The notes beneath the pieces were generated by a model that was not told the origin of the DNA, made no database searches, and worked only from the letters and a program-made list of their open reading frames with translations. 64,000 bases of DNA from Henriciella sp. (GTDB lineage: Bacteria > Pseudomonadota > Alphaproteobacteria > Caulobacterales > Hyphomonadaceae), in assembly GCA_030066975.1 (NCBI GenBank), contig JASJAO010000001.1, positions 1 through 64,000 on the forward strand. The letters run 5' to 3'. This document shows, piece by piece, positions 6,136 through 59,212 of this stretch (positions are counted from its first letter, which is position 1; each line of letters begins with the position of its first letter). The translations under genes were made by a program, and so were the position numbers.

Positions 6136-6151
6136 AAAGGATATATCATTT
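6136..6151. promoter_or_regulatory. GATATATC operator, site 1
   Basis: AAAGGATATATCATTT, one mismatch from the symmetric consensus AAATGATATATCATTT. Lies 50 bp upstream of the TonB receptor start on the minus strand. Confidence 0.75.
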
Positions 6152-6205
6152 ATGGGCAGTGTCCATTTGTCCGGTCATTTCGGTTGGAGGTGTTGCAAAT
6201 CTGCC

Positions 6206-6658
6206 TCAGTCTTGATCAGGGCTGCTTCCTTGCGGAGCAGCCGCAGAAAGGCCCTGAACCAGCAGGACATCGAAATCGCCCCAGGCATTGTCGATCCGCG
6301 CCGCCATCAGCTCAGCATATTCGGGACTGTTCCAGAACGCTCTGGCCGCCGCCATACTGTCCCATTTGCCGATCACGTAACTGGCTGGGGCATAGTCACC
6401 TTCCAGCACTTCGAGGGTCGGTCCGCCACCAAGCGCGATATAGTGCCCGCCATATTTTTCATAAAGCGGCGGTAGTTTGGCGACGTACCCTTCCATGAAG
6501 GCCGGCCGGTCATACACCTCGCCAAGAACGATCATGTAGGCGGGCGGCTCAGATATGGCCTCCTGACTAACGGCCTCAGATGACGGTAAGCCCACACACG
6601 CTGTCGCGGCAAACCCAGCACATAGACCAAGTAGCCCCCCCGCGATAAATCCCTTCAT
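6206..6658 (-). CDS. Exported DUF1330 family protein
   Basis: 150 residues from the ATG at 6658, chosen because GGAGG precedes it and because it opens a signal peptide (MKGFIAGGLLGLCAGFAATAC). The mature part is a DUF1330 domain: AYMIVLGEVYDRPAFMEGYV, GGHYIALGGGPTLEVLEGD, IGKWDSMAAARAFWNSPEY. DUF1330 is a ferredoxin-like dimeric alpha/beta-barrel fold of unknown activity; cytosolic versions are common and an exported or lipidated one is less usual. Its promoter contains operator site 2, shared with the divergent hydrolase operon. Confidence 0.8.
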   Translation of the reverse strand: MKGFIAGGLLGLCAGFAATACVGLPSSEAVSQEAISEPPAYMIVLGEVYDRPAFMEGYVAKLPPLYEKYGGHYIALGGGPTLEVLEGDYAPASYVIGKWDSMAAARAFWNSPEYAELMAARIDNAWGDFDVLLVQGLSAAAPQGSSPDQD

Positions 6659-6687
6659 GATATCCTCCGACCGGCTGGACACGGTTA

Positions 6688-6703
6688 AAAAGATATATCA
6701 TTT
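6688..6703. promoter_or_regulatory. GATATATC operator, site 2
   Basis: AAAAGATATATCATTT, one mismatch from consensus. Sits between the divergent DUF1330 gene and isochorismatase operon, about 30 bp from each start. Confidence 0.8.
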
Positions 6704-7430: not shown

Positions 7431-7438
7431 TAACGCAG

Positions 7439-7568: not shown

Positions 7569-8513
7569 ATGCACGCTGATCCCAACCTCTACGATTACTG
7601 GCCGTATGAAGGCCGTCCGAAGATCACCTGGCCGGGGGGAAAGAAGCTGGCCTTCTGGATCGCGCCGAATATCGAGTATTACGAGTTCCAGCCCCCCCAC
7701 AATGACAAGCGCCCCGGCTGGCCGCGCGGCAATCCGGACGTAGTCGCCTATTCTCAGCGCACTTGGGGCAACACAGTCGGCCACTGGCGGATGATGGATC
7801 TGTTCGATAAGTATAACCTGCGTGGCTCGATCTCGCTCTCCACAGCGCTCGTCGATCATCACCCGGAAATCATTGAGGCGGTGAATGCGCGGAGCTGGGA
7901 GTTCTTCTCCCACGGGATCTACAACACGCGCTATTCCTATGGCATGTCGCAAAGCCAAGAAGTGGCCGTGCTGAAGGACAGCATTGAAACCGTCGAGCGC
8001 GCCACCGGCCAGCGCATTCGGGGGTATCTCGCCCCAGCGCTGACCCATACCGAGCACACGCTCGGCCTCATCGCCGAGCATGAGTTCTGGTACACCTGCG
8101 ACCTGTTCCAGGACGACCAGCCGCAACCGATCAAGACCAAGACTGGCAAGTTGGTCTCAATGCCCTATTCGCTGGAGGTGAATGACGTCATTACCTACCT
8201 GGTGCAGGGCTATAGCCCGCAACGTTACGCCGATCTGCTGATCCGTCACTTTGATCAGTTGCTGGAAGAAGGCGAGCAGTCCGGCACGGTGATGTGCATT
8301 CCGCTACATGCCTATCTGGTCAGCCAACCGCACCGCTTGCGCGTGTTCGAACAGGCGCTGAAACACATTTGCAGCCACCGCGGCGATGTCTGGTTCGCAA
8401 CCGGGTCAGAGATCGCGGAATATTATCGCGAGACTTATTGGGATCAGACGCTGGCGGACGTCGCCGCGCGCGGTGTTGCGACAGGAGGGACCGGCTTTGC
8501 CCCAATCTCCTAA
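7569..8513 (+). CDS. PuuE-like CE4 polysaccharide-deacetylase-fold hydrolase
   Basis: 314 residues, the size of metal-independent allantoinase PuuE and related urate-catabolism proteins. Recognisable blocks are LAFWIAPNIEYYEF at the N-terminus, WRMMDLFDKYNLRGSISLST, WEFFSHGIYNTRYSYGMSQ and IRGYLAPALTHTEHT. The family hydrolyses cyclic amide or ureide bonds (allantoin, and reportedly cyclic imides) rather than polysaccharides. The start has GGAGG nearby. Second of at least five plus-strand genes; its 3' end overlaps the next deacetylase gene by 17 bp. Together with its two relatives in this window it suggests repeated use of ring-opening chemistry. Confidence 0.82.
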   Translation: MHADPNLYDYWPYEGRPKITWPGGKKLAFWIAPNIEYYEFQPPHNDKRPGWPRGNPDVVAYSQRTWGNTVGHWRMMDLFDKYNLRGSISLSTALVDHHPEIIEAVNARSWEFFSHGIYNTRYSYGMSQSQEVAVLKDSIETVERATGQRIRGYLAPALTHTEHTLGLIAEHEFWYTCDLFQDDQPQPIKTKTGKLVSMPYSLEVNDVITYLVQGYSPQRYADLLIRHFDQLLEEGEQSGTVMCIPLHAYLVSQPHRLRVFEQALKHICSHRGDVWFATGSEIAEYYRETYWDQTLADVAARGVATGGTGFAPIS

Positions 8514-9420
8514 ATTACCTGACGATTATCTAAAATACCCCAACCGCCAGTACGGCATGGACAACCCGCATTATGGCTGGGACCCGGCGGATCGGCGCGC
8601 GCCTTTCAAACTGAAGGGCGACACCAAAGCGACTACGACCATTATCGTACCCGTTGAGTTCTTCCCGCTGAGCCCGCCCGCCAAGCCGTTCGCGCATCCC
8701 GGCGCCATGAAGACGCCTTACCCCGACCTCCGCCATTTCACGACCCGCGATTATGGCAACCGGGTCGGCCTCTATCGCCTGCTGCGCGCCTTTGCGGCCG
8801 AAGGCGTGAAAGCCACATTCGCAGTCAACGCAGAGGTCGCGCGGCGCTATCCGCCACTGCTCGCGACGATAGAAGCAGGCGGGCATGAGATCGCCGCCCA
8901 TGGCGTCTCGACCGCGCACATTCATCATGACGGGCTCAGCGAAGCCGAGGAAAGCGCCCTGATCGCGGAGACGCGCACCGCATTCCCAGAGGCCAAGACC
9001 TGGATGAGCCCGGCGCGCAATGAGAGCTATCGCACGCTAGACCTACTCAGCGAGGCGGGCTTTGAGACGGTCCTCGACTGGGAGGCCGATCAGCGCCCCC
9101 TGTCGATGAGGACCAAGATGGGTTCAATCACCGCCCTGCCTCATTATGGCGAGCTGGGCGATTTCAAACTGCTGCTCGATCGCTCGCACTCTGAAGATGA
9201 GTGGGCTGATCAGATCATCGAGGCGGCGGCCTATAGTGTAGACCTTTACGACAAAGAAGGCGCATCTGCCCTCGCCTTTACGATGACGCCGTACATTGCG
9301 GGCCAACCTTTCCGTATTCACGCTGTGCGCCGCATTCTGAAAGCGCTCACCGCTACAGAAGGCCTAAGTCTCGCCACCGCCACCGACGCATCCGCCGCCT
9401 TCAAGGAGGCCATATCATGA
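8497..9420 (+). CDS. Second CE4 deacetylase-fold hydrolase (TTG start)
   Basis: 307 residues. The ORF is open from 8386 but the likely start is TTG at 8497, 8 bp after AGGAGG at 8483-8488, giving M-PQSPKLPDDY. CE4 features include YGNRVGLYRLLRAFAAEGVKATF, AEVARRYPPLLATIEAGGHEI and AAHGVSTAHIHHDGLSEAEE; His and Asp/Glu positions differ from the metal-binding deacetylases. The protein is related to but clearly distinct from its upstream neighbour. Its stop overlaps the nitrilase-like start (ATGA), so translation is coupled. May act on a related ring or be a partner subunit. Confidence 0.8.
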   Translation: MPQSPKLPDDYLKYPNRQYGMDNPHYGWDPADRRAPFKLKGDTKATTTIIVPVEFFPLSPPAKPFAHPGAMKTPYPDLRHFTTRDYGNRVGLYRLLRAFAAEGVKATFAVNAEVARRYPPLLATIEAGGHEIAAHGVSTAHIHHDGLSEAEESALIAETRTAFPEAKTWMSPARNESYRTLDLLSEAGFETVLDWEADQRPLSMRTKMGSITALPHYGELGDFKLLLDRSHSEDEWADQIIEAAAYSVDLYDKEGASALAFTMTPYIAGQPFRIHAVRRILKALTATEGLSLATATDASAAFKEAIS

Positions 9421-10532
9421 CCCGCCGCGAACTCCTCGCTGCCGCCGGTGCGGCCGCGCTCACTCTTCCCGTTTCCGCTCAAGGAGCCAAGCCCATGCGC
9501 TACACCGCCCTCGCGCTGCAAACCGTCTGCGACGCGGTCAATCAGGATGCCACGACCGAGGCCGCCCATGCGCGCATGGACGCGGCGATTGCCCGCGTGC
9601 GCGGCCAGATCGGATCAGCCAAGGGCTTCCTGAAAGGCTTTAATGGCTATGATGTGAAACTGGTCGTGCTACCGGAATACTGGATGACAGGCTTCCCATT
9701 GCGCGAAACCCGCGAAGAGTGGCAGGACAAGGCGGCGATCCCAATGGAAGGTGCCTTCCCTGATAAGCTCGCCGCCCTCGCGCAGACGTTCGGCATCTAT
9801 CTCTGCTCGAACCATTATGAGACCGACCCGAACTTCCCCGATCTCTATTTTCAGAGCAATGTTGTCTACGGCCCAAATGGCGACACGGTGCTGCGCTATC
9901 GCCGGATGATCTCACTCTACACACCAAGCCCCTATGATGTCTGGGACAAGTATCTCGACGTCTATGGCGAGGATGCGGTCTTCCCAGTGGCTGAGACAGA
10001 AATTGGCGCGCTCGGCACGATTGCGAGCGAGGAAATCCTCTATCCCGAAATCGCGCGGATGCATGCGTTCAAGGGCGCGGAAATCCTGCTCCACCCAACC
10101 AGCGAGGTGGGCGCGCCAACGCTGACGCCCAAGCACATTACCAAGAAAGCCCGCGCGATTGAGAACATTGCCTATGTCGTCTCGGCCAATAGCGCGCAAA
10201 TTATCGGCACACCCGTACCCGCCGCCTCGACCGATGGCATGTCGATCATTCTCGACTGGTATGGTCGCACCCTCGCCGAGGCCAATCAAGGCGAGACCCT
10301 CAATGCGAACGCCGTGCTCGATATAGGCGCCTTGCGCGACACCCGCCGCAAGACCGGCATGACCAACACGCTCTCGCGCCTACCGAACGCGGCTTTTGCC
10401 AGCGGCTATGCCGGCGCCAACCACGCCCCGGCCAACCGTACGCCCAACGGCCAGATGATTGAGCGCGCCGAGGCCATCGCGCAGCAGCAAGCCGTGATCG
10501 ACAAGCTCGCCGCCGCCGGCATCCTGAAATAG
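9417..10532 (+). CDS. Nitrilase-superfamily protein, Tat-exported, with altered catalytic triad
   Basis: 371 residues. The N-terminus MTRRELLAAAGAAALTLP looks like a twin-arginine signal. The carbon-nitrogen hydrolase fold follows: E87 in VVLPEYWMTG is the conserved Glu. The position normally occupied by the catalytic Lys reads YRR (R163), and the position of the nucleophilic Cys reads GTIASEEILYPE (S204). Canonical nitrilases and amidases use Glu-Lys-Cys, so this protein is either a binding or structural homologue or has changed chemistry. The rest of the fold (HPTSEVGAPTLTPKHITKKARAIEN) is well kept. Fourth gene of the amide/imide operon. Confidence 0.8.
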   Translation: MTRRELLAAAGAAALTLPVSAQGAKPMRYTALALQTVCDAVNQDATTEAAHARMDAAIARVRGQIGSAKGFLKGFNGYDVKLVVLPEYWMTGFPLRETREEWQDKAAIPMEGAFPDKLAALAQTFGIYLCSNHYETDPNFPDLYFQSNVVYGPNGDTVLRYRRMISLYTPSPYDVWDKYLDVYGEDAVFPVAETEIGALGTIASEEILYPEIARMHAFKGAEILLHPTSEVGAPTLTPKHITKKARAIENIAYVVSANSAQIIGTPVPAASTDGMSIILDWYGRTLAEANQGETLNANAVLDIGALRDTRRKTGMTNTLSRLPNAAFASGYAGANHAPANRTPNGQMIERAEAIAQQQAVIDKLAAAGILK

Positions 10533-12511: not shown

Positions 12512-12528
12512 GGAAACCTCCAACTTTC

Positions 12529-12544
12529 GTTTGGTATATCTTTA
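12529..12544. promoter_or_regulatory. GATATATC operator, site 3 (degenerate)
   Basis: GTTTGGTATATCTTTA keeps the GGTATATC core but only about 10 of 16 consensus positions. It lies between the divergent DUF1838 and GntR genes and could give weak autoregulation of the regulator. Confidence 0.45.
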
Positions 12545-12661: not shown

Positions 12662-13456
12662 ATGCCCGACACCATCTCCATGACCTTCACACCTGCCGAT
12701 ATTGATGAATCGGCGAGCATCCCATTGTACCAGCAGATCTACGACCTGCTGCGGGCGAAGATTATGGACGGCACCATGTCTTTGAATGATCGACTGCCCG
12801 CAGAGCAAGACCTCACTCAAGCGCTGGGTGTCTCCCGGATCACCGTGAAACGTGCAATGAATGAGTTGGCCGTCGCGGGTCTGGTGCGTCGCCAGCGGGG
12901 CATCGGCACGGTCGTGATCTATGATGTCGCGGCGCCGACCGTCAAAGGCAGCTTTGAGACGATGATTGATGGTCTGACCCGAATGGGGGTGGAGACCGAA
13001 GTACAGTTGCTCGACTGTACGGTCGGCACGGCGAGCCCCGCGATCTCAGAAGCGCTGGACCTCAAGGGCGGTAAAAGCGTCCAGCGGATCGTACGCTTAC
13101 GACGGTTGGATGGCGAACCTTTTTCCTATCTGGTCACCTATATCCCATACGACATCGCTGAAGGGTATGACGATGCGCAGCTTGCAACTGAATCTCTGAT
13201 CAAGTTGCTGGAGCAAGCGGGACATGCCCCGGTCGAGGCCGAACAAACCATTACAGCAACAGCAGCGGTGCCCGCCGTGGCGGCGAATCTCGGCGTTGCG
13301 CCAGGCTCGCCGCTCTTGCGCATTCACCGCATCATGAAAGATGCCAGTGGTCGTCCCGTGCAGGATATCACAGCCCACTACCGCGCGGATCGGTTTGAGT
13401 ACCATATGCGTCTGGCTCGCAACAATGCCGGGCAGAGGGACTGGACCACGGAATAA
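12662..13456 (+). CDS. GntR-family transcriptional regulator (HutC/UTRA type), probable regulator of the GATATATC regulon
   Basis: 264 residues from ATG 12662 (an in-frame ATG at 12614 lacks a better site). A GntR winged helix-turn-helix occupies about residues 20-86: IPLYQQIYDLLRAKIMDGT, LPAEQDLTQALGVSRITVKR, AGLVRRQRGIGTVV. A UTRA ligand-binding domain follows at about 105-250 (VQRIVRLRRLDGEPFSYLVTYI, LLRIHRIMKDASGRPVQDI). UTRA domains sense sugars, amino acids or aromatic or heterocyclic intermediates. It is the only regulator located inside the territory of the AAATGATATATC sites and is flanked by sites 3 and 4, so it is the best candidate to bind them. Direct proof is absent. Confidence 0.88.
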   Translation: MPDTISMTFTPADIDESASIPLYQQIYDLLRAKIMDGTMSLNDRLPAEQDLTQALGVSRITVKRAMNELAVAGLVRRQRGIGTVVIYDVAAPTVKGSFETMIDGLTRMGVETEVQLLDCTVGTASPAISEALDLKGGKSVQRIVRLRRLDGEPFSYLVTYIPYDIAEGYDDAQLATESLIKLLEQAGHAPVEAEQTITATAAVPAVAANLGVAPGSPLLRIHRIMKDASGRPVQDITAHYRADRFEYHMRLARNNAGQRDWTTE

Positions 13457-13487: not shown

Positions 13488-13503
13488 AAATGGTATATCA
13501 TTT
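13488..13503. promoter_or_regulatory. GATATATC operator, site 4
   Basis: AAATGGTATATCATTT, one mismatch from consensus. It ends only 15 bp before the ATG of the membrane-protein gene, so it lies in the leader or core promoter, as expected for repression. Confidence 0.8.
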
Positions 13504-24384: not shown

Positions 24385-25688
24385 GACAGCGCCTCTTGGA
24401 GTGGGGTTAGCAGCTGCGCGCAACTTGCTTGGTTTTCAATCTGCTCAATATGGGCAATCGTTTCCTCAATCTCCTGCGCCGACATTTCGCCCTCTCTCAT
24501 TAACATGCGGGCTTTGTCCTTGAGCTGCGCTTCGCTGACCGGATTTTCGGGATCGCCTAGCGCGTCGGGCGCTTTTACCGTTTGTACCCCGCATGACACC
24601 TCGGCCCCAAAGCGCGCTGGATAGGCCGTTTCATAGTCTTCGCCGACCTCTACGCGCACGCGCTGGCGCAGAGCGCTCAAAGCTTCATTCTGCGTCGCCT
24701 CTACCGAAAAATCCTCCATACCCGGCGCGCCGCGCACCAGGCAGACCGCCATGGCGTGCTGTAGCGAGAACTTCGCCTCGATGACCGATTTGGGATCAGG
24801 CTTGTCGCAGAATTTCAGCGCATCTCCATAAGTCCGCACTGTGATCGGCCCAGCCTGCGGCACGTCAATTTTCTCCCGAAGCTCCAGCGCCGCATCAATC
24901 ACCGCATGCGCATGGCGACAGGCAGGCCAGGGCTTGAAGCTGACCTCATGGATCAACCATTCCCCGCCAAAGTCGGCCATCACATCACTCGCATCTGCTC
25001 CCTTGCACATCGCGGCGAAGAACCCTTGTTCACCCTCAAGGATAGAGAGCGGTCCGGTAAAGCCAGCGCGCGCGAGTTCTGCTGCTTCAAACCCGGCCCG
25101 CGCTGCAACCGCCGTATGCAACTGTTTGCCCATGCTGGCCGGATCATAGCGGGTATGCCAGAGGCCTGCCGACTGGCTCACCGCCAGCGCCATGGCCTGT
25201 GCGGCTTGCGTCTCGTCAAGCTTGAGCAGACTTGCAGAAGCGGCGGCCGCACCGATGGCTCCGCAAGTGCCAGTCGAGTGCCACATGGCATAGTGCGCCG
25301 ATCCGACAGCGCGGCCAAGGCGGATGGTCGCTTCATACCCGCGTACGATCGCGGTGAGTAGATCCTCGCCGCTTGCACTGCCGACACTCGCCATCGCCAA
25401 AGCAGCCGGAAGGATACAGGGCCCCGGATGCAGTAGCGCGCGCTTGTCGACATCATCCATTTCGAGAATGTTTCCCAACCCGCCCCAGATAAAAGCGAGG
25501 CCTGATGCCTGCTCAACCGGTTGCGATCGCAGGATCTGTCCGGCCGGTTCCTTCGCGCCCGCCGTAGCACACCCGATCCAATCGAGCAGATGAAGCCGAG
25601 CCCGGTGCAAATCCCGTTCACCGACTGAGCGCTGTAATCGCTCTGAAAGCGTGATTAGAATGGGAGTTTCGGAAATTTGTCCGGACAT
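24381..25688 (-). CDS. MmgE/PrpD-family protein (copy A)
   Basis: 435 residues from ATG 25688. Blocks: LHLLDWIGCATAGAKEPAGQ, ILEMDDVDKRALLHPGPCILPAAL, HEVSFKPWPACRHAHAVIDA. Same family as the following gene but only distantly similar. First gene of the minus-strand operon; its start codon lies within a TTTGTCCGGACA palindrome, so repression would block initiation. Likely acts on a carboxylic acid dehydration or decarboxylation step; substrate not readable. Confidence 0.85.
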   Translation of the reverse strand: MSGQISETPILITLSERLQRSVGERDLHRARLHLLDWIGCATAGAKEPAGQILRSQPVEQASGLAFIWGGLGNILEMDDVDKRALLHPGPCILPAALAMASVGSASGEDLLTAIVRGYEATIRLGRAVGSAHYAMWHSTGTCGAIGAAAASASLLKLDETQAAQAMALAVSQSAGLWHTRYDPASMGKQLHTAVAARAGFEAAELARAGFTGPLSILEGEQGFFAAMCKGADASDVMADFGGEWLIHEVSFKPWPACRHAHAVIDAALELREKIDVPQAGPITVRTYGDALKFCDKPDPKSVIEAKFSLQHAMAVCLVRGAPGMEDFSVEATQNEALSALRQRVRVEVGEDYETAYPARFGAEVSCGVQTVKAPDALGDPENPVSEAQLKDKARMLMREGEMSAQEIEETIAHIEQIENQASCAQLLTPLQEALS

Positions 25689-25690
25689 AT
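25675..25690. promoter_or_regulatory. TTTGTCCGGACA operator, site A
   Basis: ATTTGTCCGGACATAT is a near-palindrome matching the perfect 16-mer at 33924-33939. It overlaps the ATG of the MmgE/PrpD copy A gene and lies about 60 bp from the divergent CoA-transferase start. Confidence 0.65.
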
Positions 25691-27017: not shown

Positions 27018-27731
27018 ATGCCAGCAGCAAAACCCCGGTACCGTCAACTGGCAGAGCAGTATCGCAAGGCCATCGCAAACGGCAGATACCAGCCGGGCGA
27101 TGCCCTGCCGACAGAGATGGAGATCTGCGAAAAGCACAGGGTTTCACGCCATACGGCAAGAGATGCGCTTCGGATTCTGACTGATGATGGCTTGATTGAG
27201 CGGCGGCGCGGTGCCGGAACTGTGGTCTGCGCCCCGCGCGCACCGGCCTTTGCGCAACCGCTCAGTGATTTTGACTCCATCCTGCAATATGCCCGCGATG
27301 CACATTTTGAGATTTCGACCTCACAAGATGCCGATCAGGAGACGCTGGATCGCCTTGGACTGACCGGCCGCTATCTGCAGCTGATTGGCTTCCGCCAGGT
27401 TGCCGAACAGCCGCCCCAGGCCATAACGGCGGTGTATATCCGTGCTGATGTTGCGCCCGATCCGACAACGATTGCGGCTCTGCCAGGCTCCGTTTCAGAG
27501 TGGATCGAAGCCAATCATCCGGTCAGCATTGAACGCGTGGCGCAGCGGATGGAAGCGGTTGCTTTGAACAAGAGCCAGGCAGAGCGGCTGGACGTCGAAA
27601 CAGCGTCGCCTGCATTGCGGGTCGTGCGGCGCTACCGCGATGGAAATGGCGAGATCATTTTACTGTCCGAGAGCCTGCACCCGGCGGGCCGTTTCGCTTA
27701 TGAAATGTGGCTTGATCGCACGCGGGCTTAG
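27018..27731 (+). CDS. GntR-family transcriptional regulator with UTRA domain (second)
   Basis: 237 residues. wHTH about 5-68: RYRQLAEQYRKAIANGRYQPG, LPTEMEICEKHRVSRHTARDA, LIERRRGAGTVVCA. UTRA domain about 90-230: YLQLIGFRQVAEQPPQAITAVYI. The ATG immediately follows the TAA of the CoA-transferase gene, so it is co-transcribed. It probably controls its own unit and the neighbouring CoA operons through the TTTGTCCGGACAAA elements at 25675 and 33924, whose GT-N4-AC core is typical for GntR proteins. Assignment is inference. Confidence 0.88.
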   Translation: MPAAKPRYRQLAEQYRKAIANGRYQPGDALPTEMEICEKHRVSRHTARDALRILTDDGLIERRRGAGTVVCAPRAPAFAQPLSDFDSILQYARDAHFEISTSQDADQETLDRLGLTGRYLQLIGFRQVAEQPPQAITAVYIRADVAPDPTTIAALPGSVSEWIEANHPVSIERVAQRMEAVALNKSQAERLDVETASPALRVVRRYRDGNGEIILLSESLHPAGRFAYEMWLDRTRA

Positions 27732-28168
27732 GTCTGACGAACCTCATCGCAGAGCGTGCGCCGGAACAGCTGTCCGCCGCGAAACCAGTGCCAAGTGCGG
27801 GCGCGGTGGGTACCGCCCTCACCCATGATGATCACTTCGACAAAATGCGCGCAAGGTTCGTCCTTGCGCTGCAGATTGGGCAGGATCACACCGTCAGCGG
27901 TTTCCCAGCTCTTGCCAATGAAATTCGGTGTGTCGAACCAGAGGTGATCGCCGCGATCGACGCCGTCAAAGCCCGCTTTGATCACGCTGCCATCCGGGTG
28001 GGTGAGATTGATCGTCTGGCGGTAGAAGACTTTACCATCATCCGGAAACTCACAAACGACGTGTGATTGAATCAGCTCTTCTTCCTGCCCCATCAGGTCG
28101 ATATGGCGATAGGTGCCTGTCCAGGTACCTTCATGCGCGCGATGAGCGGGAAATTTCAGCGCGCTCAT
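27728..28168 (-). CDS. DUF3598-like protein
   Basis: 146 residues, beginning FPAHRAHEGTWTGTYRHIDLMG and with HARTWHWFRGGQLFRRTLCDE at the end. The pattern H-x-G-x-W-x-G-T...D...G and W-W-F-RTL is shared with the protein at 51890-52396 (ARHEGVWEGTYRFYDPQG, ARVWQWFKADRLFQRT). This fits DUF3598, a lipocalin-like beta barrel that may bind a hydrophobic ligand. ATGA overlap with the CaiB gene upstream, so it is part of that operon. Confidence 0.65.
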   Translation of the reverse strand: MSALKFPAHRAHEGTWTGTYRHIDLMGQEEELIQSHVVCEFPDDGKVFYRQTINLTHPDGSVIKAGFDGVDRGDHLWFDTPNFIGKSWETADGVILPNLQRKDEPCAHFVEVIIMGEGGTHRARTWHWFRGGQLFRRTLCDEVRQT

Positions 28169-29334
28169 ATCACACCTTTCTCTTTCAACGCCGCAATCTC
28201 CTCCGCGTTTAGCCCAGCTTCAGCAGCGATGTCCGCGCTGTGCTCCCCAAAACCGGGGACACGTGAATTAGGCTCAGGAGGCTCATCCGCGAACTTGACC
28301 GGCGGCCCGATATGTCGGTGCCCGTCCCCGTCGGTGAACACCATGCCCCGTTCCGCTGTGAAGGGATCCTCGAACGCATCTTTCAAACTGCGGACCCAGC
28401 CCCAGGCACAGTCAATCGGCTCCAGAAAGGCTTGCCAATGCGAAAGCGGTTTCGCGCCAATCGTGTCTTTCAAGAAGGCGCGCAGCGGCGCCTGCTCCGG
28501 CCCTGGCGGGTGCTTGGCCACCCTGATCAAATCTTCTCTCCCCAACGCTGTCAGCAGGTTGGTCGCAAACTTCAGCTCCGGCCCGCTAAACGCGATGAAC
28601 TGATCGTCAGAGGTCTCATACAAATTCGTCAAAGCCGAGCCGCCAAAGCTGCGCATGTCTTTGACCGGCGGGTGCTTGTCGTCTGCAAAAGTCGGCCCAA
28701 GCACGTTCGGGGTCCAGGCGAGCGCGGCGTCATACATCGCCATGTCGATATAGTCGCCCTTGCCGGTTGTCTCGCGCCGATAAAGCGCCATCAGGATTGC
28801 TGACAAGGCCATCAGTGAAGCGCTCGCGTCTGCGAACGGAATGGACGGCATGGTCGGCTTGCCATCCTCCAAGCCGCGGTTCAGGTCAATCAGCCCCGCC
28901 ATCGCCTCAACGCCGGTATCATGCGAAGGCTTTGCGGCGAGCGAACTGTCCTGCCCAAACGCGGAGATGGAGCAATAGACCAGCCGCGCATTGTGCGCGC
29001 GCAGCGTGTCATAGTCGACACCCAGTCGCTTCACCACGCCAGGCCGGAACGCCTCCACGACCACATCCGCTGTCGCCGCCAGGCGATAGAACAGCGCGCG
29101 GCCATCCTCGTCCTTGAGGTTGAGTTTCAAGCTGCGCTTGCCCCGCGCGACATTGCGAAACCAAACCGAGACGCCGTCGGCCGTCTTCTCGCCAATCTCA
29201 CGCACCGGCTCACCAACCCCATTGGCCGGCTCGACCATGATCACATCGGCGCCATGATCGGCCATCATCATGGTCATATGCGGCCCCGGTAGAAAGGCGG
29301 AGAGATCGAGGACTTTAAGGCCAGAGAGTTTCAT
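28165..29334 (-). CDS. CaiB/BaiF CoA-transferase (family III), copy 1
   Basis: 389 residues. Family III signatures: MKLSGLKVLDLSAFLPGPHM, GADVIMVEPANGVGEP, AFRPGVVKRLGVDYDTLRAHN, and the catalytic Asp in FADASASLMALSAIL. Transfers CoA from a donor (formyl-, succinyl- or benzylsuccinyl-like) to a carboxylate. In an operon with a second CaiB, an acyl-CoA dehydrogenase, MaoC and CitE-like genes. The two CaiB proteins could form a heterodimer or act on successive acids. Confidence 0.92.
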   Translation of the reverse strand: MKLSGLKVLDLSAFLPGPHMTMMMADHGADVIMVEPANGVGEPVREIGEKTADGVSVWFRNVARGKRSLKLNLKDEDGRALFYRLAATADVVVEAFRPGVVKRLGVDYDTLRAHNARLVYCSISAFGQDSSLAAKPSHDTGVEAMAGLIDLNRGLEDGKPTMPSIPFADASASLMALSAILMALYRRETTGKGDYIDMAMYDAALAWTPNVLGPTFADDKHPPVKDMRSFGGSALTNLYETSDDQFIAFSGPELKFATNLLTALGREDLIRVAKHPPGPEQAPLRAFLKDTIGAKPLSHWQAFLEPIDCAWGWVRSLKDAFEDPFTAERGMVFTDGDGHRHIGPPVKFADEPPEPNSRVPGFGEHSADIAAEAGLNAEEIAALKEKGVI

Positions 29335-29657
29335 TAATTGCTAGGTTCCTCAACTGCGATCTGAACAAGGTAGTCTGGGTTTTCGATTTCCTTGCCAGTG
29401 CTACGCAGGCGATACACACCAGGGGCAGCAGGCTCAAACCAATGAAGGGCTGGGGGCATGCTCCAGTCAGAACCGTCGCGTAGTTGCACGTGAATTGTGT
29501 CACTCTCTGCCGCAGAAACAACTGTGCCAGCGAACTGAGTCATTTCTGTTTCGCCCGTCGATTTTATCCGTCGCACCCCGATCAAAACGAACGCACCAAT
29601 AAGATTCTCCGCAAACTCTGCGTCCCATTCCGGCGGTAAGTTCTGATTGTCATCCAT
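29334..29657 (-). CDS. Small hypothetical protein between two CaiB genes
   Basis: 107 residues with no signal peptide or membrane helix. Segments AGTVVSAAESDTIHVQLRDG and ALHWFEPAAPGVYRLRSTG suggest a small beta-rich fold. It overlaps the stop codon of the upstream CaiB gene by 8 bp and touches the start of the downstream one, so it is fully embedded in the operon. Function unknown; it resembles no named family I can recognise. Confidence 0.65.
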   Translation of the reverse strand: MDDNQNLPPEWDAEFAENLIGAFVLIGVRRIKSTGETEMTQFAGTVVSAAESDTIHVQLRDGSDWSMPPALHWFEPAAPGVYRLRSTGKEIENPDYLVQIAVEEPSN

Positions 29658-30795: not shown

Positions 30796-30800
30796 GGTCC

Positions 30801-30880
30801 GTCTCCCCGGGCCTGACCCAGGGTCTCCTGCAACATGTCTGTCTCAACGCCCAACAGACCCCGGCTCTCGCCGGGGATAC
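30801..30880. repeat. REP-like palindromic unit
   Basis: Two GC-rich inverted-repeat halves: one around 30805-30826 (CCCCGGGCCTGACCCAGGG type) and a perfect 7-bp hairpin CCCCGGC-TCTC-GCCGGGG at 30859-30876, 12 bp after the acyl-CoA dehydrogenase stop on the minus strand. It sits in the gap between two operon genes. Confidence 0.55.
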
Positions 30881-30888
30881 GAGTTTTG

Positions 30889-32088: not shown

Positions 32089-32104
32089 AATGGCCTCCTT
32101 GAAT

Positions 32105-33084: not shown

Positions 33085-33096
33085 ATGATGTCCTCT

Positions 33097-33923: not shown

Positions 33924-33939
33924 ATTTGTCCGGACAAAT
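33924..33939. promoter_or_regulatory. TTTGTCCGGACAAA operator, site B (perfect 16-bp palindrome)
   Basis: ATTTGTCCGGACAAAT is exactly self-complementary. It lies between the AhpD-like stop (33954) and the CitE-like start (33912). The inner GTCCGGAC has the GT-N4-AC form of GntR operators. Confidence 0.75.
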
Positions 33940-34514: not shown

Positions 34515-34517
34515 CGC

Positions 34518-36041: not shown

Positions 36042-36874
36042 TGCGGCTCCTCCCCGCCGGAGACATTCATGCTCTCTGCCGTAATGTAATTGGCTTCATC
36101 ACTGCAAAGGAACGCAACGGCATTGGCGGTATCTTCCGGCAAGCCGGGACGCCCCATCGGAATGCGATCTGCCATCGCCGCCATATAGTCCTCAACCGAA
36201 TCCGCGCCGACGACTTTCGAGAAATACTCATTCTGCCAAGCCCCCAGCCCGGTGGTGACATGGTTCGGACAGACATTGTTGACGGTGATCTTGTCACCGC
36301 CAAGCTCCACCGCGGCTGAGCGAACGAGGCCCACAAGACCGTGCTTTGAAGACGTATAGGCCTGCGCATGCGGAAAACCGGACTTTGCCGCCTGGCTCGC
36401 AATATTTATGATCCGCCCGCCCTTGCCTTGCTTGACCATGACCTCAGCGGCCGCTTTCACGCCGAAGAAAGCGCCGGTCAGATTGACGTCGATCACCGCC
36501 CGCCAATCATCTTCGGTGACCTGCAGAAGCGGCTTCATGATATAGCCGATGCCTGCATTGTTGACCCAGATATCCAGGCTGCCATGCGTGTCGACAGCGT
36601 GTTGCGCGAGTGCGCGCACATCCTCGAGGGAGCGCACATCGCAAACCTTGGTTGACGCCTCAACACCAAGTGCGCGCATGTCCGCGGCAATCGCATCCAT
36701 CTCATCGGTAGAGCCGATATGCTCGGCGCCCGTCGCAGCATCACGCGGCGCGCCAATATCGGAGATCACAATGTTCGCGCCGTCTTCGGCGAGGCGTTTG
36801 GCAATCGCTTCACCCAAACCCTTGCGGCGACCTGATCCGGTGATCACAGCCGTTTTGCCGGTAAACCTTCCCAT
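36038..36874 (-). CDS. Short-chain dehydrogenase/reductase
   Basis: 278 residues from ATG 36874. Classical SDR: cofactor loop AVITGSGRRKGLGEAIAKRL, NNAG in DIWVNNAGIGYIM, catalytic Ser in IINIASQAAKSG, YxxxK in AQAYTSSKHGLVG. C-terminal NVCPNHVTTGLGAWQNEYF resembles mycofactocin-type SDRs, though the inserts were not verified. Oxidises or reduces an alcohol/ketone of the pathway. In operon with the HapK-like gene and CE4. Confidence 0.93.
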   Translation of the reverse strand: MGRFTGKTAVITGSGRRKGLGEAIAKRLAEDGANIVISDIGAPRDAATGAEHIGSTDEMDAIAADMRALGVEASTKVCDVRSLEDVRALAQHAVDTHGSLDIWVNNAGIGYIMKPLLQVTEDDWRAVIDVNLTGAFFGVKAAAEVMVKQGKGGRIINIASQAAKSGFPHAQAYTSSKHGLVGLVRSAAVELGGDKITVNNVCPNHVTTGLGAWQNEYFSKVVGADSVEDYMAAMADRIPMGRPGLPEDTANAVAFLCSDEANYITAESMNVSGGEEPH

Positions 36875-36883
36875 CAAAGCCCC

Positions 36884-37198
36884 CTAGCCAAGCTTGTTGG
36901 TCAGAATAAAGGACAGGTCATCTGCCATAGCCTGAAACTCACCCGCGATCGCCTGCATGGTCTCGGTTGAAACCTCGCCGCCAAACTGGTCCATGTCATT
37001 GACGTCAATGATCTCGATATAGGCATACGGCGGCTTGTCGTCCGAGCCCAACAAGCCAACGGATTTGAATACCGCAAATTCGTCGACCGATTTCAGGCCG
37101 TTCACCGTCGGAATGTCCTTGGACTTTGCCCACGCCTCATAATCTGCAACGCTGACCCCCGGCTTGAGATTAAAGAGTGCGACAATCTTGGTACTCAT
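36884..37198 (-). CDS. HapK/REDY-like small protein
   Basis: 104 residues from ATG 37198, where a GAAGG-like site precedes it; an earlier ATG at 37231 would lie in the operator. The sequence IVALFNLKPGVSVADYEAWAKS, then SKDIPTVNGLKSVDEFAVFK and a C-terminal helix is typical of HapK/REDY-like dimeric alpha/beta-barrel proteins seen beside prodiginine and other tailoring pathways. Its role is not known; it may be a small lyase or cyclase-like enzyme. First gene of a five-gene minus operon with site 5 32 bp upstream. Confidence 0.75.
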   Translation of the reverse strand: MSTKIVALFNLKPGVSVADYEAWAKSKDIPTVNGLKSVDEFAVFKSVGLLGSDDKPPYAYIEIIDVNDMDQFGGEVSTETMQAIAGEFQAMADDLSFILTNKLG

Positions 37199-37229
37199 AT
37201 CAGGAACCTTCCCTATAGCTTCTTGTCTC

Positions 37230-37245
37230 AAATGATATATCTTTT
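37230..37245. promoter_or_regulatory. GATATATC operator, site 5
   Basis: AAATGATATATCTTTT. Lies between the divergent HapK-like operon and the methyltransferase gene. Confidence 0.85.
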
Positions 37246-39024: not shown

Positions 39025-39048
39025 ATTTAAATGATATATCATTTAAAT
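39025..39048. promoter_or_regulatory. GATATATC operator, site 6 (perfect 24-bp palindrome)
   Basis: Centre AAATGATATATCATTT at 39029-39044 is an exact consensus, and self-complementarity extends to 24 bp (ATTT...AAAT at both sides). It ends 22 bp before the ATG of the second WLGG membrane-protein gene. Confidence 0.9.
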
Positions 39049-40930: not shown

Positions 40931-40946
40931 AAATGATATATCTTTT
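40931..40946. promoter_or_regulatory. GATATATC operator, site 7
   Basis: AAATGATATATCTTTT, between the divergent DUF1330 and VOC-reductase-hydrolase units. Confidence 0.85.
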
Positions 40947-45305: not shown

Positions 45306-45321
45306 TATTGGTATATCTTTT
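45306..45321. promoter_or_regulatory. GATATATC operator, site 8 (degenerate)
   Basis: TATTGGTATATCTTTT matches 12 of 16 symmetric consensus positions. Sits between the divergent MFS and amine-oxidase genes. Confidence 0.6.
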
Positions 45322-51767: not shown

Positions 51768-51783
51768 AAATGATATATCTTTT
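51768..51783. promoter_or_regulatory. GATATATC operator, site 9
   Basis: AAATGATATATCTTTT, between the divergent TonB receptor and DUF3598 genes. Confidence 0.85.
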
Positions 51784-53373: not shown

Positions 53374-53386
53374 GGGTTCCACCTCT

Positions 53387-53402
53387 AAATGATATATCCT
53401 TT
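53387..53402. promoter_or_regulatory. GATATATC operator, site 10
   Basis: AAATGATATATCCTTT, one mismatch. Lies between the DUF1838 start (53373) and the stop of the symporter gene (53415). Confidence 0.8.
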
Positions 53403-54884: not shown

Positions 54885-55835
54885 CTATTCGGCGGCGACA
54901 GGAACTGGCGCACCTTTAAAGCCAAGCGGTAGCCCAGCGCGCGGGGTAAAGCCATAGAGGTCTTCATCCGGCAAGGCGGCCTGGACCAGTTCACGCGTCG
55001 CCATCAAGGCTTCAAGGTCAATGCCCGTGTCCACGCCCATCGACTCGAACATGAAGACCAGATCTTCCGTCACCACATTACCGCTGGCGCCGGGCGCGGT
55101 CGGGCACCCACCGAGGCCACCGAGCGAGCTGTCAAATGTCGTGATCCCCTCTTCATAGGCGGCCAGCACATTGGCGAGGCCGAGGCCACGCGTATTGTGC
55201 AAATGCACGCCGGTCAGGTTCTCGGCGCCCACCACGCCCCGCACAGCGCGGATCAAGCGCTTCATCGACATCGGGTCGCCATAACCCGTTGTGTCTGACA
55301 GGCCGACTTCGTCACATCCTGCTGCCATCAATCGCTCTGCGCAGCGCAGAATCACCGCCTCGTCAATCGGACCTTCCAACGTGCAACCAAAGGCGGTCGA
55401 TAGCGACCCTTCAAAGTGAGGGCGGCGCTCTTCCGGCAAGGTCTGGATCAGATCGGAGATCGCTTTGGCTTCGTCGATGACCTGGTCATGCGTGCGACGA
55501 ATGTTGCGCAGTGAATGGGTTTCGCTGACCGACAGCGGCAGCGTGATCTTGTGTGCCCCGGCCTCGACCGCCAATTGCGCCCCTTTCAGGTTTGGCACCA
55601 GAACAGCGACTTCGAGACCGGGAATCTCGATCGCGTGACGGACAATTTCGCCTGTATCAGCCATTTGCGGCAGCAGTTTCGGGGACACGAAAGACCCGAC
55701 TTCTATTTCCTTGACCCCTGCTGCAGCCAGCGCCGTAATCCAGCGTTTCTTCGCCGCCGTCGGCATAATCGCCTGGCAATTCTGCAGGCCGTCCCGCGGT
55801 CCGACTTCACTGATCAAGACGCTGTTTGTCGTCAT
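54885..55835 (-). CDS. HMG-CoA lyase-like aldolase (HMGL/DRE-TIM)
   Basis: 316 residues from ATG 55835. DRE-TIM family signature in SVLISEVGPRDGLQNCQ (metal site R-D), EVGSFVSPKLLPQMADT, LSDTTGYGDPMSMKRLIR, HLHNTRGLGLANVLAAYEEG with the catalytic-loop Cys in LGGLGGCPTAPGASGN. Cleaves a 3-hydroxy-3-methyl-type acyl-CoA (for example HMG-CoA to acetyl-CoA and acetoacetate). A CaiB transferase and LeuCD-like hydratase lie across the divergent promoter, so a branched dicarboxylate could be hydrated, activated and cleaved. Tandem sites 11 and 12 upstream. Confidence 0.9.
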   Translation of the reverse strand: MTTNSVLISEVGPRDGLQNCQAIMPTAAKKRWITALAAAGVKEIEVGSFVSPKLLPQMADTGEIVRHAIEIPGLEVAVLVPNLKGAQLAVEAGAHKITLPLSVSETHSLRNIRRTHDQVIDEAKAISDLIQTLPEERRPHFEGSLSTAFGCTLEGPIDEAVILRCAERLMAAGCDEVGLSDTTGYGDPMSMKRLIRAVRGVVGAENLTGVHLHNTRGLGLANVLAAYEEGITTFDSSLGGLGGCPTAPGASGNVVTEDLVFMFESMGVDTGIDLEALMATRELVQAALPDEDLYGFTPRAGLPLGFKGAPVPVAAE

Positions 55836-55877
55836 TCTGTCCGCCTTTGTCTTTGGTCTAAGTGTGACCTTCTTGCC

Positions 55878-55893
55878 AAATGATATATCTAAT
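55878..55893. promoter_or_regulatory. GATATATC operator, site 11
   Basis: AAATGATATATCTAAT. First of a tandem pair; core spacing to site 12 is 18 bp. Confidence 0.75.
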
Positions 55894-55895
55894 TC

Positions 55896-55911
55896 AATTG
55901 ATATATCTATT
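55896..55911. promoter_or_regulatory. GATATATC operator, site 12
   Basis: AATTGATATATCTATT. Second of the tandem pair between HMGL-like and CaiB genes. Confidence 0.75.
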
Positions 55912-55963
55912 AAAGATGTACAGGAAGGCAAAGCATGATCTACTTTGCTCATGGGAGAGAAAT

Positions 55964-57181
55964 ATGAACAGTGAAACAGGCCTGCTGGCCGGGATCAAGG
56001 TTGTCGAATTCACTCACATGGTCATGGGGCCAGCCGCGGGGCTCGTGCTTGCCGACCTGGGCGCGGAAGTGATCAAGGTCGAACCGGTCGGTGGCGACAA
56101 GACTCGGCGCCTCCGCGGATCGGGGGCCGGCTATTTCTCGATGTATAACCGTAACAAAAAGAGCCTGGCGATCGATCTGAAGTCACCTGAGGGCAAGGAG
56201 ATTGCACTCAAACTGATCGACGAGGCCGATGTGTTTATCGAAAACTTCCGTCCCGGGGCACTCGATAAATTGGGGTTTGATTACGCAACGCTCTCGGCGC
56301 GCAACCCGAGACTGATTTATTGCTCGGAGAAAGGTTTTCTGGACGGCCCTTATGCGCATCGCACGGCGCTCGACGAGGTGGCGCAAATGATGGGCGGCCT
56401 CGCCTATATGACCGGCCCACCCGGTCGTCCGCTTCGCGCGGGCAGCAGCGTGATCGATGTGACAGGGGGCATGTTCGGGGCCATTGCGGTTCTCGCGGCG
56501 CTGCAGGATCGGACACGAACCGGCAAGGGCCGTCATGTCAGCGCCTCTCTGTATGAAACAACGGTCTTCCTGGTCGGTCAGCATATGGCGCAATATGCGG
56601 TGACCGGCACACCTGCCGCGCCGATGCCAGCACGCGTGTCAGCCTGGGCGGTCTATGATGTCTTCGACGTCAAAGACGATGAAAAAGTGTTTGTCGGCGT
56701 GGTCTCAGACAGCCAATGGCGGGCCTTTTGTGAGGCGTTTGGTCTTGAGGATTGGGCGGCAGACAACTCGCTCGCGGCGAACAATAACCGCGTCGCTCGC
56801 CGCGATGAGATTATTCCGGTCTTGCGTGACCTGTTTGCAGCTTTCACGCAGGCCGAACTGATGGCGAAGCTGGAAACGACAGGCCTGCCTTTCGCGCCGA
56901 TCCAGCGCCCGGAAGATCTCGCCGAAGACCCGCACTTGGTCGAAAGTGGCGGCCTGCTCGACATGACCATTCCAGATGGGGGTGAGATTTCACTGCCCGC
57001 CATGCCGATCTCGATTGATGGTGCCCGACCCGGTCTAAGCATCAATCCACCGGAGATTGGCGCGCACTCAGAAGAGGTCTTACGCAGTCTTGGGCTGGAC
57101 GATAGTGAAATCGATCGCTTGATTGAACGCGGTCTGGTTGATGCCTTCAAGGCAAAACAAGCCCCTCAGGCGGCAGAATAG
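55964..57181 (+). CDS. CaiB/BaiF CoA-transferase (family III), copy 3
   Basis: 405 residues from ATG 55964, with GGGAGAG upstream (the open frame to 55880 would include the operator). GIKVVEFTHMVMGPAAGLVLADLG, GAEVIKVEPVGGDKTRRLRG, FRPGALDKLGFDYATLSARN and catalytic Asp in SSVIDVTGGMFGAIAVLAAL. Family III CoA transfer. Divergent from the HMGL-like gene across tandem operators and convergent on the LeuD-like gene with a 16-bp overlap of stops. Confidence 0.93.
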   Translation: MNSETGLLAGIKVVEFTHMVMGPAAGLVLADLGAEVIKVEPVGGDKTRRLRGSGAGYFSMYNRNKKSLAIDLKSPEGKEIALKLIDEADVFIENFRPGALDKLGFDYATLSARNPRLIYCSEKGFLDGPYAHRTALDEVAQMMGGLAYMTGPPGRPLRAGSSVIDVTGGMFGAIAVLAALQDRTRTGKGRHVSASLYETTVFLVGQHMAQYAVTGTPAAPMPARVSAWAVYDVFDVKDDEKVFVGVVSDSQWRAFCEAFGLEDWAADNSLAANNNRVARRDEIIPVLRDLFAAFTQAELMAKLETTGLPFAPIQRPEDLAEDPHLVESGGLLDMTIPDGGEISLPAMPISIDGARPGLSINPPEIGAHSEEVLRSLGLDDSEIDRLIERGLVDAFKAKQAPQAAE

Positions 57182-57789
57182 ACCCAGGGACGCTGCGCGG
57201 TGTCGCGGTCGAGGAACGCGTCGATCTGATCTTGCTCGGTCAGGGTCAGGGCGATGGGATCAAGCCCTTCGATCAGCAGTCGCTTGGCAAAGGCGCCAAT
57301 CTCGAACTCGATTTGTCCGTTTCGCAGGTGCTCGCTGCGAACGGTTTGGGCTCCAAGGTCCACGGACACGCTTACCGGCTGTTCACCTGCAGCGAGCGCG
57401 TCGATATCCTCTGCCGACAGCGTGATTGGCAAAATGCCATTGCGCACGCAATTACCGTGGAAAATCTCGCCAAAGCTCTTCGCCAAAATGACCCGGATGC
57501 CATACTCCTCAAGCGCCCACACAGCATGTTCGCGCGACGACCCACATCCAAAATTTTCTCCCGCGATAAGGATGCTTGTCCCGGTTTGCTCGGGCCGGTT
57601 CAGCACAAATTCCGGATTGATCGCACGACCACCCGGTTCAAGATATCGCCAACCCGCAAACAGGCCCTCGCCCAGGCCCGCGCGGCTCACCTGTTTCATT
57701 TCGCGTGAGGGAATGATTTGGTCGGTATCAATATTATCGCGCAGAAGAACAGCCGCGATCCCTTCATGCTGCACCAGCGGTTGTCTCAT
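57166..57789 (-). CDS. LeuD-like hydro-lyase small subunit
   Basis: 207 residues from ATG 57789, overlapping the LeuC-like stop (ATGA). AAVLLRDNIDTDQIIPSREMK, GENFGCGSSREHAVWALEEYG and ILAKSFGEIFHGNCVRNGILP. Partner of the large subunit in an iron-sulfur hydro-lyase. Family enzymes interconvert isopropylmalate isomers, citraconate or dimethylmaleate hydrates. Here it lies with CoA-pathway genes and no leuB, so catabolic use is more likely than leucine biosynthesis. Confidence 0.9.
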   Translation of the reverse strand: MRQPLVQHEGIAAVLLRDNIDTDQIIPSREMKQVSRAGLGEGLFAGWRYLEPGGRAINPEFVLNRPEQTGTSILIAGENFGCGSSREHAVWALEEYGIRVILAKSFGEIFHGNCVRNGILPITLSAEDIDALAAGEQPVSVSVDLGAQTVRSEHLRNGQIEFEIGAFAKRLLIEGLDPIALTLTEQDQIDAFLDRDTAQRPWVYSAA

Positions 57790-59180
57790 CACACGACCTC
57801 CGGCTCAAGCGCAGGCAGGTTCACGGGCGCACAGATCTTTCCGGCCACCGCACACGCCGCAACCGTGGCCGGGCTTGTAATATGTGTGCGCACGCCAGGG
57901 CCCTGGCGCCCCTCAAAGTTACGATTGGTTGAGGAGACGACACGCGCGCCCGGTGGGAAGGTCTCGCCGCCTGCGTAGAAACACATCGCGCATCCGGGTT
58001 CGCCCCATTCGAAGCCTGCCGCGATGAACACCTGATCGACACCGAGCGCTTCGGCTTCGGCTCGCACCTGCTGAGAGCCAGGTACACACACGGCCCGAAC
58101 GCCTGATGCGACCCGACGCCCTTTCAGGACGGTGGCCGCTGCCTGAAGGTCAGACAGACGACCATTCGTGCATGATCCGATAAACGCGCCCTGGATGGGC
58201 AATCCGGCAATAGGTTGCGCTGGCGACAAGCCCATATATTCGAGGGCCCGGGCGGGGGCAGTCAAAGGAATGTGCCCGCCGAGTGGCATACTCTCTTCCG
58301 GACTCGTGCCCCAACTGATCTGAGGGGTGATCTCACATGCATCCACATGGATCTCATAGTCAAAAACAGCATGATCGTCCGTCGTTAGCGTGCGCCAGTG
58401 TGCCATAGCTTTGTCAACGTCGCTGCGGTCTGCAAGGCGGGACCGAGCGTATGAGAAAATCTGCTCGTCCGGTGCAATCAGGGCCGAAAATGCGGCGAAC
58501 TCAACCGCCATATTGCAGAGCGTCAGGCGCCCTTCGATCGACAGGTCCGCCACAGTCGATCCGGCATATTCAATCGCGCAACGCTTGCCGCCCGCAGCGC
58601 CATACTTGGCGATCACATAAAGCGCGATATCCTTGGCGCTGCATCCCGCGGGTAATTCACCATCAATCGAAACCCGCATCTGTGGCGGCTTTTTAGCCCG
58701 TATGACACCTGTCGCCATGACGTGTTCGGCTTCGCTGGACCCGATCCCCCAAGCCATCGCGCCGAAAGCGCCCAGACTGCACGTATGACTGTCCGGGCAC
58801 ACGATTGAGTATCCAGGAAGGACGATCCCCTGTTCTGGCGCGGTCACATGTACAATGCCCTGAGCAGGGCTATCTGTATCGATAAGGTGAATGCCTGCGG
58901 CCTCTGCCATTTGCCGGGTTTCGGTGATGAAAGCTTCCCCACCTGGGCTGCGCGACTCGTCACGGCCTCGGCCCGCTCGGAAAGACACGATATGATCCAT
59001 GATCGCATAAACCCGGGAGGGATCGCGCACCGAATACCCGTTCTCCGCCAAGGATTTCAGGGCCACGCCGCCTGTTCGCTCATGTAAAAGCAACCGGTCG
59101 ATGGCGAGCAGGTCTGCGCCGTCACCAGCGTCACAGACGCGGTGTTCTGCCCACAACTTATCAAACAGGGTTTGCGCCAA
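57789..59180 (-). CDS. LeuC-like hydro-lyase large subunit (4Fe-4S)
   Basis: 463 residues. Start TTG at 59180 is chosen over TTG 59198 because GGAGG-type AGGAGAGAG precedes it and the product begins MAQTLFDKLWAEH as in LeuC; TTG 59198 lies inside the operator. Fe-S Cys ligands: SIVCPDSHTCSLGAFGAMAWG, FIGSCTNGRLSDLQAA, GEPGCAMCFYAGG. Catalyses stereospecific addition or removal of water on a substituted dicarboxylate. Site 13 is just upstream. Confidence 0.92.
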   Translation of the reverse strand: MAQTLFDKLWAEHRVCDAGDGADLLAIDRLLLHERTGGVALKSLAENGYSVRDPSRVYAIMDHIVSFRAGRGRDESRSPGGEAFITETRQMAEAAGIHLIDTDSPAQGIVHVTAPEQGIVLPGYSIVCPDSHTCSLGAFGAMAWGIGSSEAEHVMATGVIRAKKPPQMRVSIDGELPAGCSAKDIALYVIAKYGAAGGKRCAIEYAGSTVADLSIEGRLTLCNMAVEFAAFSALIAPDEQIFSYARSRLADRSDVDKAMAHWRTLTTDDHAVFDYEIHVDACEITPQISWGTSPEESMPLGGHIPLTAPARALEYMGLSPAQPIAGLPIQGAFIGSCTNGRLSDLQAAATVLKGRRVASGVRAVCVPGSQQVRAEAEALGVDQVFIAAGFEWGEPGCAMCFYAGGETFPPGARVVSSTNRNFEGRQGPGVRTHITSPATVAACAVAGKICAPVNLPALEPEVV

Positions 59181-59196
59181 CTCTCTCCTCCGGACC

Positions 59197-59212
59197 AAAT
59201 GATATATCTTTT
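59197..59212. promoter_or_regulatory. GATATATC operator, site 13
   Basis: AAATGATATATCTTTT, 16 bp upstream of the LeuC-like start. Confidence 0.85.

Follow-up and report, generated by a model that had tools for sequence, protein, structure and literature searches.

The first 64,000 nucleotides of contig JASJAO010000001.1 of Henriciella sp. (the whole of this 64-kb stretch is referred to below as the window) carry 13 copies of a 16-bp palindrome beside genes for uptake and catabolism, which raises the question of which regulator reads these sites and what it controls. The reader is very probably GntR1 (12662..13456, + strand), a 264-aa UTRA-type GntR regulator, and we give the specific proposal that the palindrome is the operator of GntR1 acting as a HutC-subfamily repressor a probability of roughly 87%. 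GntR1 combines an N-terminal GntR winged helix-turn-helix (PF00392, 72.4 bits, above the cut-off of 27) with a C-terminal UTRA domain (PF07702, 124.5 bits, above the cut-off of 23.8), and its closest named relatives come from Henriciella and Hyphomonas (87-91% identity). An earlier note, made from the sequence alone, had called it the natural candidate; this choice is now supported by co-occurrence, by position, by recurrence of the sites at orthologous promoters and by a wider form of the operator found with distant orthologs.

The palindrome and its promoters

All 13 sites listed in the earlier note are present, and all share G at position -4, C at +4 and a central TATA (GnTATAnC). Across their 26 half-sites position -3 is A in 23 and G in 3, while position -5 is T or A, rarely G. 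A search with AAATGATATATCWTTT, allowing up to three mismatches, recovered 12 of the 13 places in 23 strand-matches (shuffled sequence: mean 0.33, maximum 4); the weak site at 12529, GTTTGGTATATCTTTA, falls outside this limit, and stronger versions of it lie upstream of the GntR1 ortholog in several relatives. Some details of the earlier description needed correction: AAATGATATATCTTTT occurs in five identical copies instead of four, including the minus-strand copy at 6688, and the perfect palindrome, at the best site (39029), spans 26 bp, not 24. Proximity to gene starts was borne out in that a plausible start codon, selected by hand, lies 13-75 bp from each site, and with those starts every site is intergenic; the claim that all sites are intergenic does not extend to some of the longest open reading frames (e.g. 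6657, 55880), which start within a site or upstream of it.

A motif search of the whole genome (3.57 Mb), which had been put forward as a check, found ten sites within one mismatch, nine of them in the window, against none in the reversed control. The only strong operator outside the window (C13:58485; G000, L007) precedes a gene for a VOC (glyoxalase-type) protein, whose homologs also carry a site in genomes G008, G024 and G028. The idea of a regulon confined to a 53-kb territory was therefore not sustained, with one site on another contig and the sites of relatives scattered; in G028, a single contig of 3.63 Mb, they are dispersed over 280 kb, 730-800 kb, 1.53 Mb and 2.50 Mb. Likewise, the region between 15 and 37 kb indeed lacks sites of this motif, but it belongs partly to the regulon through the gene runs that start from 13488 and 37230.

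The same promoters carry the palindrome in other genomes. When sites were counted at up to two mismatches in stretches fetched around sites in nine relatives, 87 of 100 stood at the start of a window homolog; since the stretches were selected for sites, it is the gene identities that count here, not site density. Homologs of six window genes have a site in eight of the nine relatives each: the TonB receptor TonB1 (3915-6086, - strand), 49 bp from the operator at 6136..6151; the isochorismatase-fold hydrolase, whose plus-strand gene run diverges from a DUF1330 protein gene (-) at 6688..6703; the 13519 gene for a six-helix membrane protein, 15 bp after the operator at 13488..13503; the HapK-type gene run (-) and the methyltransferase (+) on either side of 37230..37245; and the second TonB receptor, TonB2 (-), which shares 51768..51783 with a DUF3598-like gene (+; six of nine). 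Seven of the nine relatives have a site before homologs of the LeuC/LeuD-type hydro-lyase genes 59198->57166 (-; operator 59197..59212), the DUF1838 gene 52453-53382 (-; 53387..53402), the 39071 gene for another six-helix membrane protein, 26 bp after the operator that forms the core of the 26-bp palindrome (39029..39044), and the DUF1330 gene (-) that faces a VOC-like gene at 40950/40989 (+) across 40931..40946, the VOC count being three of nine. The tandem operators at 55878..55911 (55878 and 55896, 18 bp apart) lie between an HMG-CoA lyase-type gene (-) and a class III CoA transferase (+), for which a site is found in five of nine relatives, with weaker tandem copies in three more. A tandem pair with this 18-bp spacing is also seen in G008, G024 and G028. 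Two operators are weak: that at 45306..45321, between an MFS transporter (-) and a flavin amine oxidase-type gene (+), recurs in one relative only, and that at 12529..12544, between the DUF1838 gene 11714-12523 (-) and GntR1 (+), is a candidate for autoregulation. The gene set itself recurs in large part in Hirschia, Parvularcula, Niveispirillum, Brevundimonas and Kordiimonadaceae, and Parvularcula (G072) has one additional site before a PrpD gene.

GntR1 and the alternatives to it

The palindrome follows GntR1 across genomes. Among 101 relatives, a set that includes the genome itself, sites within one mismatch occur in 26; 14 of these have four or more, and we call them motif-rich. A GntR1 ortholog (at least 55% identity) occurs in 15 of the 101, and 13 of these 15 are motif-rich vs. 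one of the other 86 genomes (Fisher 1.8e-13, shared descent being ignored here and in the tests below). Position was scored as well: in the 300 bp before and the 150 bp after 80 named GntR1 homologs, the core GRTATAYC was present at 17 of 18 loci with at least 54% identity, at 3 of 43 with 47-53% and at 10 of 19 with 37-46%, the last (Hwanghaeella, Kordiimonadaceae, Emcibacter and others) always with the core upstream of GntR1. Of the 18 close loci, at least 12 come from genomes already counted for co-occurrence, so that the two counts are not independent.

Several observations weigh against this assignment. G001 has an ortholog at 60% identity and no site within one mismatch, with a three-mismatch site upstream of the gene; G052 (57% ortholog) holds two variant sites only; and no GntR1 ortholog was found in G044, an 88% complete genome with five sites. 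In Hirschia (G042), window homologs are missing behind 8 of 21 sites, and 7 of its 15 stretches contain none, among them stretches whose sites precede genes for a 3-hydroxyacyl-CoA dehydrogenase and a VOC protein. Of 81 GntR1 alignment rows, 45 show one of the two operator spacings described below beside the gene, 6 show both and 30 show neither, 21 of the latter among the 43 loci at 47-53% identity. The neglect of shared descent in the Fisher tests is a further reason for caution, as is the usual HutC operator consensus, GTMTAKAC, which the 13 sites do not match literally, having A or G instead of T at -3. Since the source of this consensus, PMC4494728, also lists exceptions, the mismatch makes the sites a poorer example of the usual motif but leaves the domain assignment untouched.

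Rival readers were compared by co-occurrence for the two other regulators considered, both encoded in the window. GntR2 (27018..27731, + strand) belongs to the same UTRA-type family as GntR1. A threshold of E<=1e-20 places it in 11 of the 14 motif-rich genomes, and at E<=1e-75 its association with the motif is likewise strong (10 of 11 genomes), which also counts against GntR1, since co-occurrence by itself could scarcely tell the two apart. GntR2 was not found, however, in the motif-rich genomes G035, G038 and G044, and a different palindrome, ATTTGTCCGGACAAAT, adjoins its neighbours and tracks it, which makes GntR2 a very improbable reader of the main palindrome. The AsnC/Lrp-type regulator at 47896-48354, with matches at E<=1e-30 in 10 of the 14 motif-rich genomes, might read it instead, or a regulator outside the window, against which linkage cannot speak, with GntR1 merely travelling along. 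We judge this very improbable, though no search for an unlinked regulator was made: AsnC was not found in motif-rich G035, G036, G038 and G044 and is present in many motif-free genomes, while the core adjoins GntR1 at 17 of the 18 close loci and at those of distant homologs, and the wide motif of the Brevundimonas group follows GntR1.

With GntR1 as the reader, the direction of control could still differ, the protein being an activator or dual-acting regulator and not a simple repressor. Some sites lie 44-75 bp from the start codon, where activation is possible, but several lie 13-31 bp from the chosen start, which is close for ordinary activation. The characterised UTRA member NagR is moreover described as a repressor in PMC4333415, and we regard activation or dual action as improbable. 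In the repressor reading, a GntR1 dimer would sit on AAATGATATATCATTT-type sites near promoters and start codons. It would block two sets of genes, those for uptake (both TonB receptors, the MFS transporter and the sodium symporter that lies behind the HMG-CoA lyase-type gene) and those for the enzymes of a single catabolic programme, probably together with its own gene, until a pathway acid, bound to the UTRA domain as inducer, released it.

NagR/YvoA, a HutC-subfamily regulator of Bacillus subtilis with a small target set, unlike the many target genes of GntR1, likewise has a winged helix and a UTRA domain and a palindromic operator with G-4/C+4. According to PMC4333415, NagR reads G-4 with Arg48 and G-5 with Arg38. 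The arginine at the Arg48 place is kept in 81 of 81 GntR1 rows, and G-4 is invariant in the operator; the Arg38 place, ten residues earlier, is glutamine in the window protein (Gln in 60 rows, Arg in none), and the GntR1 operator core is GATATATC, whereas NagR reads two neighbouring G. Residue spacing thus suggests a contact logic in which each of these places would correspond to its operator base. The best NCBIfam matches of GntR1 are PhnF (TIGR02325, 128.9 bits) and HutC (TIGR02018, 113.4 bits), both below the curated cut-offs of 156.8 and 220, and the families matched in the window include no phosphonate gene. In Hirschia, one site (L156) stands roughly 220 bp ahead of a gene of the aromatic amino acid lyase family, which includes histidine ammonia-lyases.

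Two spacings of one half-site

The main palindrome is scarce around GntR1 orthologs of 47-53% identity. Judging from the DNA around their genes, these distant orthologs use the same half-site set 8 bp wider, ATGATATA-N4-TATATCAT, before the same genes, a form that is new here. A scan for gapped palindromes across the 43 loci of this identity range, many of which are near copies, found GATATA-N4-TATATC in four downstream regions (control maximum 2). We then tallied ATGRTA facing TAYCAT by gap. The loci at 54% identity or more (18 loci, 330 kb) have 23 pairs at gap 0 and none at gap 8, the 43 loci at 47-53% (751 kb) have 3 at gap 0 and 27, in 19 loci, at gap 8, and those at 37-46% have 7 and 1, respectively. 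The two geometries thus place 0 or 8 bp between ATGATA and TATCAT. Allowing up to two mismatches and A or G in each half, 73 wide sites occur in 35 of the 43 loci (reversed control 0); 70 of them precede a window-homologous gene, most often the 13519 gene (18), the isochorismatase (11), TonB1 (9) and LeuC (9), and none falls inside a gene mapped by window homology.

At genome scale, 20 genomes picked from wide-form loci hold 83 wide sites, with zero control matches in every one. Across 101 genomes of the Brevundimonas group, 14 have a GntR1 ortholog (E<=1e-50, 47-52% identity) and 13 have the wide motif within one mismatch, all 13 falling among those 14 (13/14 vs. 0/87, Fisher 1.7e-15). Loci of eight of these 13 genomes had themselves been a source of the pattern, two of them (G156 with L094, G214 with L086) recognised by their coordinates; without these eight genomes the association is 5/6 vs. 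0/87 (Fisher 1.2e-7).

A GntR1 tree built with a quick method requires two changes between the narrow and the wide form across the 45 single-form rows. The motif VSRITVKRA is exact in 76 of the 81 rows, and no linker insertion or deletion is present among the alignment rows listed. Upstream of the GntR gene at four loci of distant homologs (L110, L113, L116 and L119), half-sites stand in a row, with narrow and wide arrangements overlapping; it is possible that such arrangements are intermediate between the two geometries. AraR of B. subtilis is a GntR-family protein that also has half-sites at two spacings, of six or eight nucleotides (PMC4333415). These differ by 2 nucleotides, whereas the offset between lineages of GntR1 orthologs is 8 bp and recurs at site after site. 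The change seems to be a clear natural example of repressor and sites shifting in concert while half-site and linker length stayed the same, and bears on the flexibility of UTRA repressors.

Target genes, a second palindrome and the possible substrate

With operon extents assumed from strand and spacing, some 40 window genes (counted by hand) become a regulon that can be put to the test, its regulator and operator both being named. Pfam and NCBIfam matches describe them as two TonB receptors with MFS and sodium symporters for transport, together with VOC, YCII and DUF1330 proteins, a HapK-type protein, an SDR, a methyltransferase, a CurA-type reductase and a series of catabolic enzymes. Downstream of the 6688 operator, 7569..10532 (+) encodes two PuuE/polysaccharide-deacetylase-type hydrolases (7.6-9.4 kb) and a carbon-nitrogen hydrolase. 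The 13488 site heads the run 13519->17985, in which the 13519 gene is followed by an FAD oxidase, an aldehyde dehydrogenase and an enoyl-CoA hydratase. The 37230 site heads a minus-strand run that would extend from 37231 down to at least 33954 (33954..37231: HapK, SDR, a third PuuE-type hydrolase at 35.1 kb, VOC and a CMD protein) and perhaps to 28165. The genes of 28165..33912 (-) encode a RipC-like lyase, a RipB-like hydratase, a TrmO-like protein, an acyl-CoA dehydrogenase and two class III CoA transferases, and 54885..59198 encodes the HMG-CoA lyase-type protein, a class III CoA transferase and the LeuCD-type hydro-lyase.

The run 28165..33912 may be read through from 37230, but the second palindrome, ATTTGTCCGGACAAAT, at 33924..33939, before the RipC-like lyase gene (33097-33912, -), suggests that it has a promoter of its own. 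A one-mismatch copy at 25675..25690 stands at the point where an MmgE/PrpD gene (-) and an acetyl-CoA hydrolase-type gene (+) start in opposite directions. In 16 genomes searched, ATTTGTCCGGACAAAT occurs within one mismatch in 10 of 10 GntR2-positive and 0 of 6 GntR2-negative genomes; at two mismatches G003 and G038 match as well, a limit at which the reversed control has one match in three genomes. This is the other palindrome that the earlier note mentioned for 15-37 kb. GntR2, the proposed reader of this palindrome, probably controls part of the lower pathway (the RipC-like lyase/CoA run and the MmgE/PrpD genes), and the second palindrome probably marks a nested lower-pathway regulon. In G035, where GntR2 was not detected, GntR1 sites stand at the RipC-like and MmgE/PrpD promoters; this is only suggestive because G042 has GntR2 and yet carries GntR1-type sites, one of them weak, at both places.

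What substrate such a regulon would serve can be approached through enzyme families. The enzymes suggest cyclic imides, perhaps tetrapyrrole fragments, which would be opened by a PuuE-type hydrolase, lose their amide through the isochorismatase/CN hydrolase, be hydrated as maleates by the LeuCD-type enzyme and, after CoA transfer, be cleaved by the HMG-CoA lyase-type enzyme; an acyl-CoA dehydrogenase with RipB-like and RipC-like enzymes would form a parallel, succinate/itaconate-like arm. The chain from imide hydrolase to HMG-CoA lyase-type enzyme makes chemical sense, and alkyl-succinates or itaconates would suit the parallel arm. The HMG-CoA lyase-type gene (54885-55952) exceeds its subfamily cut-off (NF004283, 286.4 vs. 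246 bits), and the LeuCD-type pair (57166-59198), compared with 3-isopropylmalate dehydratase, scores above the LeuD cut-off (TIGR00171, 205 vs. 116.25 bits) and below that for LeuC (TIGR00170, 474.8 vs. 560.25). All three PuuE-type genes remain below the allantoinase cut-off TIGR03212 of 424.6 bits (117.3 for the 7569 gene, 52.1 for 8386 and 222.7 for 35139). As in itaconate degradation, RipC/Ccl and RipB/Ich are the top matches of two genes, 33097 (232.6 vs. 375 bits) and 32563 (239.2 vs. 340), both short of the equivalog cut-offs, and the window differs from that system in having three PuuE-type hydrolases and LeuCD-type genes alongside.

Cyclic imide hydrolases, which open a five-membered imide, are presumably linked to the PuuE group, the window enzymes being assigned by fold family only, and a literature search returned no paper holding both terms, cyclic imide hydrolase and PuuE. 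The candidate imides are the maleimides and succinimides that remain after the breakdown of chlorophyll or haem. Methyl vinyl maleimide, methyl ethyl maleimide and hematinic acid are named among such products in PMC7318184, a study that itself detected hematinic acid and not the maleimides. Since no tetrapyrrole-cleaving enzyme was identified, it is family chemistry that carries the tetrapyrrole reading. Alkylated cyclic imides as the substrate are thus a tentative proposal that we consider doubtful; if true, it would supply genes for the last steps of tetrapyrrole recycling. We hold it unlikely that two things are true together, namely that, between lineages of the Alphaproteobacteria, an orthologous repressor changed its operator geometry by 8 bp together with the entire regulon, keeping the half-site, the recognition helix and the length of the linker from DNA-binding to UTRA domain, and that this regulon mineralises alkyl-substituted cyclic imides from tetrapyrroles.

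Two pairs of genes stand out for their operators. The two DUF1838 genes (52453-53382 and 11714-12523) each adjoin one, and the predicted fold of the former consists mostly of beta strands, with no clear solved relative. The 13519-14181 and 39071-39763 genes, each with its own operator, encode paralogous membrane-type helical proteins outside any Pfam family, which share a conserved His, a Tyr-Trp-Leu-Gly motif, an Asp and an Arg.

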